64,000 nucleotides of DNA from assembly GCF_030848565.1 (NCBI RefSeq), contig NZ_JAVDDV010000006.1:186001-250000 (forward strand), in the 5' to 3' direction. Shown here one piece after another: positions 36,495 to 39,273 of the stretch. Both the position numbers and the translations under genes were made by a program. Each line of letters starts with the position of its first letter. Positions within the stretch are counted from its first letter, which is position 1. Below the pieces are notes generated by a model. That model did not search any database. It saw only the letters and a program-made list of their open reading frames with translations, and was not told the DNA's origin. The stretch comes from Natronolimnohabitans sp. A-GB9 (GTDB lineage: Archaea > Halobacteriota > Halobacteria > Halobacteriales > Natrialbaceae).

Positions 36495-37724
36495 TTACTC
36501 GTCCTCGCCGCGTCCGTCGGTCGCGAGTTCGACTTCCTCGTCTTCGTTGGCCGCGATCGCCTCGTTGGCGAGGCGGCGCTGGAAGCCGTGGTACTTCGCG
36601 ACACCGGTGGCGTCCTCCTGGGTGATCTTTCCGACCGTCTCCGTGTCGAAGGACGCGTGCTCGGCCGAGTAGGCTGCGTAGTCGCTGTCACGAGCAACCG
36701 CGCGGGCCTGGCCACCTTCGAAGCGGATCGTCACCGTTCCAGTGACGCGCTTTTGGGTCTCGTCGATGAAGCCTTCGAGGGCACCGACGAGCGGCGCGTC
36801 GACCAGCCCTTCGTACCCTTTCTTCGACCAGCGCTGGTCGATCAGCTGCTTGAACTCGCGTTCTTCCTGGGTGAGCACGAGCCCTTCGAGCGCCTCGTGG
36901 GCGTTGAGCAGCGTCGTCGCCGCTGGGTGTTCGTAGTTCTCGCGGACCTTCAGCCCGAGCATGCGGTCTTCCATCGAGTCGGTGCGGCCGACGCCGTAGG
37001 CCCCGGCCACGCCGTTTAGATGTTCAATGAGTTCGACGGGCTCGTACTCGACGCCGTCGACGGCGACGGGATAGCCCTCCTCGAAGGTAATCTCGATCTC
37101 CTGGGTGTCGCCGGTCGGTGCCTGGGTCCAGGCGTAGATGTCTTCCGGCGGGACGTAGCTCGGGTCCTCTAAGTCGTCACCCTCGACCGAACGGCTCCAG
37201 AGGTTCGTGTCGATCGACCAGTCGCCACCGCTACCACCCTCGACGGGGAGGTCTTTCTCCGCGGCGTACTCCTGTTCCCACTCACGGGTCAGGCCCAGTT
37301 CGCGCACGGGGGCGATCACTTCGAGATCGGAGTCACGCCAGACAGCCTCGAACCGGAGCTGGTCGTTGCCTTTGCCCGTACAGCCGTGGGCAATACCGGT
37401 ACAGCCCTGCTCTTCGGCGACCTCGAGGATCGCTTCGGCGATCACGGGACGAGCCAGCGCCGTCCCGAGCGGGTAGCCCTGGTAGGTCGCGTTCGCGCGA
37501 ACGCTGTCGAGACAGAGCTGTGCGAACTCCTCTTTGGCGTCGACGACGTAGTGTTCGAGGCCGAGCGCTTCGGCAGTCTCTTCGGCCTCTTCGAACTCCG
37601 AGGCCGGCTGGCCGACGTCGACGGTCACACCGATGACGTCGTCGTATCCGTATTCTTCCTCGAGCAGCGGGACACAGACAGTCGTGTCCAGGCCGCCCGA
37701 AAACGCAAGTGCCACGCGGGTCAT
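36495..37724 (-). CDS. argG: Argininosuccinate synthase
   Basis: The 409-aa enzyme joins citrulline and aspartate with ATP. It starts MTRVALAFSGGLDTTVCVPL, the PP-loop SGGxD motif, and has GCTGKGNDQLRFEAVWR and GAYGVGRTDSMEDRMLGLK. It is the first enzyme gene of the cluster. A TATA-like CTTAAG (37754-37759) lies about 30 bp upstream. A short Arg-rich leader ORF lies 148 bp further upstream on the same strand. Confidence 0.96.
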   Translation of the reverse strand: MTRVALAFSGGLDTTVCVPLLEEEYGYDDVIGVTVDVGQPASEFEEAEETAEALGLEHYVVDAKEEFAQLCLDSVRANATYQGYPLGTALARPVIAEAILEVAEEQGCTGIAHGCTGKGNDQLRFEAVWRDSDLEVIAPVRELGLTREWEQEYAAEKDLPVEGGSGGDWSIDTNLWSRSVEGDDLEDPSYVPPEDIYAWTQAPTGDTQEIEITFEEGYPVAVDGVEYEPVELIEHLNGVAGAYGVGRTDSMEDRMLGLKVRENYEHPAATTLLNAHEALEGLVLTQEEREFKQLIDQRWSKKGYEGLVDAPLVGALEGFIDETQKRVTGTVTIRFEGGQARAVARDSDYAAYSAEHASFDTETVGKITQEDATGVAKYHGFQRRLANEAIAANEDEEVELATDGRGEDE

Positions 37725-37862
37725 ATCGTATGCGAGGAAAACGCGAGGATGGACTTAAGCCCGTTGGTTTCAAATACGTAAATTATCGATAGAGCCGCTG
37801 CTAGCTGTGAATTCTGCATTTTCTGGATCGTTGGAACGAACCGGGACGAGAGGTGTAGTATA

Positions 37863-37998
37863 GTGGGCGGGCTCAAAGGCCCCGCCGTCGCCGTCGCCGT
37901 CGCGACAGAACAATCCCGTCGGTAGCCGAAGTGGCGCCTGCGGTGCCGACGGTATGACTCATTGGTAGCCCTATGCCAACCCTCCGTATTAAATCCTG
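37863..37998 (-). promoter_or_regulatory. Putative attenuator-like region upstream of argG
   Basis: Minus-strand RNA from about 37963 would hold two hairpins. Segment 1 CCGTCGG (37952-37946) pairs with segment 2 CCGACGG (37922-37916). GGCGGG inside the last Arg codons (37886-37881) pairs with CCCGCC (37871-37866) just after the stop codon. CCGTCG of segment 1 is also complementary to the CGACGG repeated three times in the Arg run, so the structures are mutually exclusive. No U-run follows the last hairpin, so it is not a classic intrinsic terminator. Confidence 0.5.
37873..37962 (-). CDS. Putative arginine leader peptide, seven consecutive Arg codons
   Basis: The ORF encodes 29 aa: MSHTVGTAGATSATDGIVLS, then seven Arg (codons CGA CGG CGA CGG CGA CGG CGG at 37902-37882), Gly, Leu and TGA. 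TTTAATA (37993-37987) is centred about 28 bp before the ATG, the geometry of a leaderless haloarchaeal gene. The stop is 148 bp before argG on the same strand. This is the layout of an amino-acid leader peptide controlling its own biosynthetic operon. It is an inference from sequence; the ORF might instead be an Arg-rich microprotein or chance. Confidence 0.6.
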   Translation of the reverse strand: MSHTVGTAGATSATDGIVLSRRRRRRRGL

Positions 37999-38041: not shown

Positions 38042-39187
38042 CTACTCTTCGTCGTCGGCTCCGTCCTCGCTCTCGTCCGGTAGGGCCAACACGTTCTCGC
38101 GACCGATCCGGAAGACCTCGACCTCGTCGTCCTCGCGCAGGCCGCTGACGACCTGGCTCGTCTTGGCCTCGGTCCAGTCCAGTTCGGAGACGACCGCCTG
38201 CTGTTTGATCCGTCCACCACGTTCCTCGAGCAGTCGCAGGACGCGTTCCTCGTTGCTGAGTAGTTCCGCAGGCGGTTCGTCGTCGCCGGCCGAACCGTTT
38301 TCTACCGTCGCCGTCGCTCCGCCGTTGGGTGATGGCGTCGTGGACGTCGTCCGGCCGTCTCGTTTGATCCACCAGCCAGCGGCACCGACGGTCGCGAGAA
38401 AAGCGAGTGCCGCCAGGACGATCAGCCAGGGCATCGATGGTGGCGTTTCCTCTTCGTCCTCGGTCGGCTCTCCCGTGTCGTTGCGCTCCTCGGTCATGAC
38501 GATCGTCGGCGACGTCGACGAGAACGGATCCCCGTTTCCGCCCCACTGGACCGACGCCAGTTCGCCGTCCTCCGCATCGCTCGTTGGGTCGCCGCTTTCG
38601 GGTGTCGGCTCGACCTCGTCGATGGTGTACCCCTCCGGCGCGAACACCGTAAACGACGTGTCGTGGGGCAGCGAAAAGCCGGCGAGGGTGTCCTCGACCT
38701 CGATACGGTTCAGCTGCCGATATGCGAACGAATCCCACTCGAACGTCACCACGACGTGGCCGAGATCTCGAGGCGCGGAACTCGTGTCAGTCTCGACGTC
38801 GACGTTTCTGATCTCCATTTCCCGCTCGGTTGCGTTCTCCCCCTCGGCGAGTTCGTCGTTCCATCGATCCGTCTCGCTGTCGGCGTACGTCGTCGGATTC
38901 GCTTCGACGTCTTCTCGGAACTCGTCCCACGTGCCATCGGAGTCGTTCTCGAAGCGGTAGTCGACGACGAACGTCGCCGATTCGTTCTCGTGGACGAATA
39001 CGTCGATCTCGATATCGTCTGCGTCGTCAAGTCGGTCGATCTCGGTTTCGGTATCGGGGGCTTCCTGTGCTGCTGCTCCGCCGACCCCACCAGCGACGAT
39101 CGCGATCGAGCCGACCGAAAGCACCGCGAGCACACACCCGATACCCACGAGCACCCAGAACAGGGCCCGCGGCCCCTTCACATTCAT
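38042..39187 (-). CDS. Membrane-anchored protein with cytosolic winged-helix domain
   Basis: The product is 381 aa from the ATG at 39187 (MNVKGPRALFWVLVGIGCVL). A signal-type hydrophobic segment is followed by an extracytosolic acidic beta-rich domain (DDIEIDVFVHENESATFVVDY), a second transmembrane helix (MPWLIVLAALAFLATVGAAGWW) and a cytosolic winged helix at the C-terminus (LLSNEERVLRLLEERGGRIK...). This outside-to-DNA layout is common in haloarchaeal DUF7345/DUF7343-type proteins and suggests one-component signalling. The start could also be the GTG at 39196. Confidence 0.8.
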   Translation of the reverse strand: MNVKGPRALFWVLVGIGCVLAVLSVGSIAIVAGGVGGAAAQEAPDTETEIDRLDDADDIEIDVFVHENESATFVVDYRFENDSDGTWDEFREDVEANPTTYADSETDRWNDELAEGENATEREMEIRNVDVETDTSSAPRDLGHVVVTFEWDSFAYRQLNRIEVEDTLAGFSLPHDTSFTVFAPEGYTIDEVEPTPESGDPTSDAEDGELASVQWGGNGDPFSSTSPTIVMTEERNDTGEPTEDEEETPPSMPWLIVLAALAFLATVGAAGWWIKRDGRTTSTTPSPNGGATATVENGSAGDDEPPAELLSNEERVLRLLEERGGRIKQQAVVSELDWTEAKTSQVVSGLREDDEVEVFRIGRENVLALPDESEDGADDEE

Positions 39188-39273
39188 CGTACTCACATGT
39201 TATAGCCGAGCAAATAGGTCTTTCCGACTCGAGAAACGGTTTATTTTTCATACGGTCACGGGAACGTGACTGT

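Follow-up and report, generated by a model that had tools for sequence, protein, structure and literature searches.

The leader upstream of argG

On the minus strand of the window, i.e., the whole 64,000-nt stretch of Natronolimnohabitans sp. A-GB9 DNA that was analysed, argG opens an arginine cluster that continues with argH, argX, argC, argB, argD and others. Upstream of argG lies a short ORF with seven tandem arginine codons, after which its frame ends with GGC CTT TGA (Table 1). An earlier note on this DNA had described this 29-codon ORF, a TTTAATA box centred about 28 bp before its ATG and two hairpins in its mRNA. All of these are present as described, and the arms of both hairpins, here called P1 and P2, covary in relatives. 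Since the TTTAATA box starts 31 nt from the ATG, the leader transcript should be leaderless. The next gene 5′ of the leader (38042-39196, minus strand) encodes a protein with a DUF7345 domain and a C-terminal DUF7343 domain.

Table 1. Features of the argG leader region, in window positions.
Feature	Positions	Strand	Basis or remark
TATA box TTTAATA of the leader transcript	37987..37993	-	box starts 31 nt 5′ of the leader ATG, centre at about -28
Leaderless leader ORF, 29 codons, MSHTVGTAGATSATDGIVLSRRRRRRRGL and stop	37873..37962	-	frame conservation and homologous uORFs
Hairpin P1, 5′ arm CCGTCGG	37946..37952	-	covariation
Hairpin P1, 3′ arm CCGACGG	37916..37922	-	covariation; ends 13 nt 5′ of the first run codon
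Run of seven Arg codons, CGA CGG CGA CGG CGA CGG CGG	37882..37902	-	all CGA or CGG
Hairpin P2, conserved register GGGC-CTTTGA-GCCC	37866..37886	-	covariation; overlaps the last Arg codons
P2 arms in the window, GGCGGG / CCCGCC	37886-37881 / 37871-37866	-	
Leader stop codon TGA	37873..37875	-	within the P2 loop
G-free C/U/A tract, 18 nt	37848..37865	-	directly 3′ of P2
argG-proximal TATA-like box CTTAAG, argG's own promoter	37754..37759	-	present in Natrialbaceae- and Haloferacales-type loci
argG, argininosuccinate synthase, the gene controlled	36495..37724	-	confirmed by Pfam

The earlier note had attached two caveats to its description. The first, that no U-run follows the last hairpin, holds in the window, where a tract of C, U and A follows P2 instead; this G-free tract was absent from the note's description. 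The second, that argG appears to have its own TATA box, is borne out for Natrialbaceae- and Haloferacales-type loci, whereas no such box was seen in many Haloarculaceae-type genomes. In the latter, argG should therefore depend on the leader promoter and share one mRNA with the leader, while in Natrialbaceae, with an argG-proximal TATA box, only some of the argG mRNA may stem from the leader transcript.

Two further elements were observed between leader and argG. In the window (37753-37840), this interval holds a family-conserved block, TTAGCAGnCGCTCTnnCnnTAATTT, 5′ of the argG TATA box, which is possibly an operator or a U-rich stop signal. Loci at which no TATA box of argG was seen (L076-L085, L089-L094, L103 and others) show a third hairpin about 30-60 nt before the argG ATG; its arm sequences differ by genus, and a CA-rich unstructured stretch follows it.

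Conservation of frame, codons and hairpins

The regions upstream of argG were compared in two rounds, the first with 111 loci from the family Natrialbaceae and named genomes, and the second with 80 loci, from 78 genomes of other genera or families located by their ArgG and from a few family members. These sequences are related, so that the counts below are not independent events, and the sets were thinned by similarity. In the first round, a short ORF with an Arg-rich end and an overlapping GC hairpin was found at practically every argG. In that round, about 29-34 nt separate the start of the ORF from a TATA-like box, and the range over the relatives as a whole is about 29-35 nt, counted from the start of the box to the leader ATG. 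In the second round, the leader precedes argG except in three divergent genomes and in two or three decayed copies. The three genomes (L214-L216) carry a divergent ArgG with 58% identity. At two more loci (L156 and L179) the automatic ORF picker missed the leader, where the run and P2 are evident on inspection. The run and P2 look decayed at L154 and L165, which belong to one small group of genera and would be suited to a natural comparison of argG regulation. Natronolimnohabitans also offers a natural control, as its second and divergent ArgG paralogue (L101) has no leader. Of 292 genomes of the class, 266 gave a match to a covariance model of the run and P2 when E was set permissively at 0.1. 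Across the upstream regions compared, the ATG, the Arg run and the hairpins are conserved order-wide, and the hairpins show compensatory changes.

As judged from sequence comparison, the leader frame is under selection. In a frame-blind test, the start was chosen by TATA distance alone and P2 by hairpin pattern alone. The frame from ATG to P2 was open in 94 of 94 distinct leaders, and in 85 of the 89 leaders that have a stop within P2, this stop shares the frame of the chosen ATG (binomial P ~1e-35). Differences in ATG-to-P2 length were multiples of three in 65 of 72 cases, and 1-nt changes in the P2 loop were paired with the frame in which the stop stays in the loop.

Between families, what the frame encodes is conserved only in its arginine codons, and the N-terminal two thirds of the peptide vary. 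Arg accounts for 62-81% of the codons at positions -4 to -7 relative to the stop in the argG leaders. The choice of codon is also strongly biased. Among the last nine codons up to P2, arginine is encoded by CGA 211 times, CGG 133 times, CGC 4 times and CGT twice, as compared with 28 CGC, 18 CGT, 12 CGG and 5 CGA at positions 2-14 of the same uORFs and 103 CGC, 38 CGG, 22 CGT and 21 CGA in the genes of the window. The bias of the run codons in the larger leader set gives a Fisher P of ~3e-36. The earlier note had named, as outcomes that would count against its reading, a run that changes freely to other codons and a lack of conservation of ATG, run and hairpins; neither was observed. The run codons are non-randomly CGA and CGG, both of which are disfavoured elsewhere. 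One relative has separate tRNA-Arg genes with the anticodons UCG, CCG and GCG, suggesting that the run calls for particular isoacceptors.

The RNA structure was examined by a covariation test, which compares the complementarity of two arms within a species to that of arms taken from different species, for 28 segment pairs. Only the arms of P2 (z 10.7) and of P1 (z 9.7) stand out, and every other segment pairing among the 28 had |z| < 1.6, i.e., no covariation. This test was used because P2 registers and loops shift in the columns of a MAFFT alignment, where the column-wise counts of P2 pairs were modestly above controls. About half of the distinct leaders have GGGCC/GGCCC as P2, and other leaders have GGCCC/GGGCC, GGGTC/GACCC, GGCTC/GAGCC or other arms. 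P1 begins about 9 nt 3′ of the ATG, and its end is typically separated from the first run codon by 10-13 nt. The median distance from P1 to P2 is 29 nt, as compared with a footprint of 27 nt for an elongating H. volcanii ribosome (PMC12482152). The folding energy of P1 is only moderately low relative to synonymous-codon shuffles (mean z -1.0), and thus the case for P1 rests on covariation. The role of P1 is the least certain part of the model described below.

The earlier note had further proposed a switch, in which CCGTCG of the P1 5′ arm pairs alternatively with the CGACGG repeats of the Arg run. This pairing did not covary (z = 0.2) and was rejected. The pairings of the run or P2 with downstream segments, and of P2 with the G-free tract, were likewise without covariation. 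Since no alternative pairing covaries, the classical antiterminator/terminator layout is absent.

In base composition, nothing about the element is as unusual as the G-free tract. Among 128 distinct sequences, G occurs at 0-6% at each of the 17 positions 3′ of P2 and then returns to 20-35%. All 17 nt are free of G in 81 of 102 distinct leaders, as compared with 7 of 4218 control windows drawn from these upstream regions. A general terminator made of a hairpin and a G-free tail was also considered, using the gene ends of G129, a haloarchaeal genome on a single contig of 2.09 Mb. This idea was rejected, as the combination was found at 1 of 98 gene-end hairpins of G129, indicating that the tract is special to these leaders. 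In H. volcanii, an RNA hairpin has been reported to terminate 59% of transcripts in vivo (PMC7237163).

A leader of the same design before ilvB

A scan for the architecture regardless of the amino acid covered 2.0 Mb of G129. The combined filter gave exactly one match, which lies before ilvB (acetolactate synthase large subunit) and encodes the leader peptide MAHTRMPRLACPASIAIVGA, followed by a stop; the argG of G129 itself was not found within the 2.0 Mb scanned. The same design, with a TATA box, a short ORF, a hairpin and a G-poor tract, was then found at 30 of 30 ilvB loci from all families sampled, including the window's own genome (L333, G000:C2 near 91685). The leader ORFs end in or near IVGA at all 30 loci, and the hairpin, GGGGC/GCCCC, sits at the stop or close to it. 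Within the final 7 positions of these leaders, GTA makes up 29 of 40 Val codons, versus 8 of 1232 in the ilvB genes, and ATT makes up 25 of 40 terminal Ile codons, versus 32 of 654. However, GTA can join an extended P2 stem in the ilvB leaders, so its bias is not purely a codon signal and may be partly structural. P1 is weakly supported in the ilvB leaders (P = 0.003). Among these loci (L322-L351), the leader often lies directly 3′ of a leuA-like gene within a branched-chain cluster. No such leader was found at the trpC, hisG and leuA loci of 20 genomes.

The position of the stop varies in some leaders of both kinds. Some Natrialbaceae ilvB leaders have their stop shortly 3′ of P2. In a Natronorubrum-like group of argG leaders (L004, L010, L012, L013, L023 and L048), the frame passes P2 and ends well downstream while P2 is kept, showing that the hairpin and the stop position can be uncoupled. 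Taken together, these two kinds of leader indicate that the exact stop position is not essential.

Probable ribosome-mediated attenuation and its alternatives

The earlier note had likened the layout to leader-peptide attenuation. Its sensing part stands, as arginine sensing is supported by the conserved frame, codons and hairpins and by the ilvB twin, whereas its pairing switch does not. The cognate residue follows the pathway, codon use is selective and the frame is maintained, which points to a ribosome that reads tRNA charging; we consider it quite likely that the leader senses the cognate aminoacyl-tRNA through the position of the ribosome. The argG leader as a whole is probably an amino-acid-sensing leader that acts as a ribosome-mediated attenuator, and whether its output is transcription termination we regard as evenly balanced.

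In such an attenuator, ample charged tRNA-Arg would allow the first ribosome to reach the stop codon and depart. P1 would then refold beside the 5′ AUG and hinder reloading, and P2 would fold with the unstructured tract behind it, cutting short the expression of argG from the leader transcript. P2 would lower downstream expression, most likely via premature transcription termination. When the tRNA-Arg reading CGA and CGG is uncharged, the ribosome would stall on codons that abut or overlap P2 and hold P2 open, and transcription would proceed into argG. A stall at the far 5′ end of a long run would leave P2 uncovered, which counts against this reading, as do the lack of a U-run behind P2, the rarity of a hairpin with a G-free tail at gene ends, and the separate argG TATA box in Natrialbaceae. 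Because no alternative pairing is conserved, the simplest switch would be steric, with the ribosome itself as the switch and no antiterminator needed. At loci with an argG TATA box, the leader would contribute a regulated part of transcription, and where no such box is seen, it would control the sole promoter. Coupling of transcription and translation in Haloferax volcanii has been reported from protein interactions (PMC8576121).

A different output of the same sensor is possible but rather unlikely. A ribosome stalled near the 5′ end, between P1 and P2, would in this case protect or process the mRNA (stalled ribosomes stabilise ermC mRNA), and in one variant the G-free tract would be exposed or hidden as an entry site of aCPSF1/FttA, the archaeal factor for termination and cleavage, with no hairpin-driven termination involved. 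Such an output is consistent with a P1-P2 gap that suits one ribosome, with the lack of a U-run behind P2, and with a G-free, C-rich tract that is maximally unstructured, unlike the gene-end terminators of the relative. It also fits the loci where the argG TATA box is unseen, at which the leader and argG should share one mRNA. However, where argG has its own promoter, the stability of the leader transcript could not reach the argG-proximal transcript.

Control by the nascent peptide, which would stall the ribosome through its arginines, possibly with free arginine as a ligand, appears improbable. Poly-basic peptides slow ribosomes, and the argG leaders are Arg-rich at their C-terminus; however, the ilvB counterpart terminates in the neutral IVGA, and it is the identity of the codons that is conserved while the N-terminal part of the peptide is variable. 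We also find it very improbable that the ORF is incidental to a structured RNA or DNA element (protein-binding CGACGG repeats, hairpins) that acts on argG. Conservation of P1, P2 and the G-free tract at the RNA level would agree with such an element, but not the 85 of 89 stops in frame, the open frame in every leader and the indels in threes, nor the fixed TATA-to-ATG spacing, the covariation of loop length with frame, and the switch of cognate amino acids with the gene controlled. Least probable is an independent small-protein gene located 5′ of argG by chance, since, despite its own leaderless promoter (which argG in Natrialbaceae has as well), no sequence beyond the Arg codons is conserved between families, and the strict order-wide tie to argG, with the paralogue L101 lacking a leader, points to action in cis.

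The ribosome-mediated attenuator favoured here would work like a bacterial amino-acid attenuator minus two defining features, the antiterminator and the U-run. We note likenesses and differences to four known systems. First, in the bacterial attenuators (trp, his, leu, ilvB/ilvGMEDA and thr), a short leader ORF likewise abounds in codons for the amino acid that the pathway makes, these codons adjoin the regulatory hairpin, and a biosynthetic gene lies downstream, with ilvB among the targets. The argG leader, in contrast, is archaeal and leaderless, has neither a conserved antiterminator pairing nor a U-run, and possesses a stop codon in the hairpin loop, a G-free tract and, within the ORF, a further hairpin (P1) on the 5′ side. 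This design, with no antiterminator, a stop in the loop and a G-free tract, suggests a separate origin. Second, the fungal arginine attenuator peptide of arg-2/CPA1 is likewise encoded by a uORF before an arginine-pathway gene. Its sequence is conserved, and its nascent chain is the target of free arginine within the ribosome, whereas the haloarchaeal peptide is variable with conserved codons and its sister element reads Ile and Val. Third, in Rho-dependent leader systems such as tnaC, a ribosome near the leader stop beside a C-rich, G-poor tract decides downstream transcription. The likeness is an analogy only. The conserved haloarchaeal hairpin encloses the stop codon and, to our knowledge, Archaea lack Rho. 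Fourth, the Salmonella speF leader is an arginine-responsive mRNA leader with a leader ORF, but it is bacterial, controls ornithine decarboxylase, uses alternative RNA conformations and has a different role for arginine (PMC6386406).

A search of Rfam, whose families include T-boxes, riboswitches and bacterial amino-acid leaders, matched nothing in the window region up to E = 1 and nothing above gathering scores in five related loci. A paper on transcription start sites names neither argG nor ilvB. No archaeal leader-peptide attenuator was found in the literature searched, a partial coverage that excluded preprints and makes novelty likely rather than proven, and we know of no established archaeal example. 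It is moderately probable that the Halobacteriales possess an order-wide, apparently undescribed class of ribosome-mediated attenuators, comprising at least the argG and ilvB leaders, with leaderless ORFs, a single hairpin with the stop in its loop, and a G-free tract. If true, Archaea would gain their first example of this kind of control, in an independent design that lacks an antiterminator. Leader-peptide attenuation is a classical example of how ribosome and RNA polymerase are coupled, and two conserved operon leaders, with their cognate codons, constant geometry and compensatory changes in the hairpins, make coupling, premature termination and the sensing of tRNA charge in Archaea testable, e.g., in Haloferax volcanii. 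The design of the leaders also points to a termination or processing signal so far undescribed in haloarchaea.
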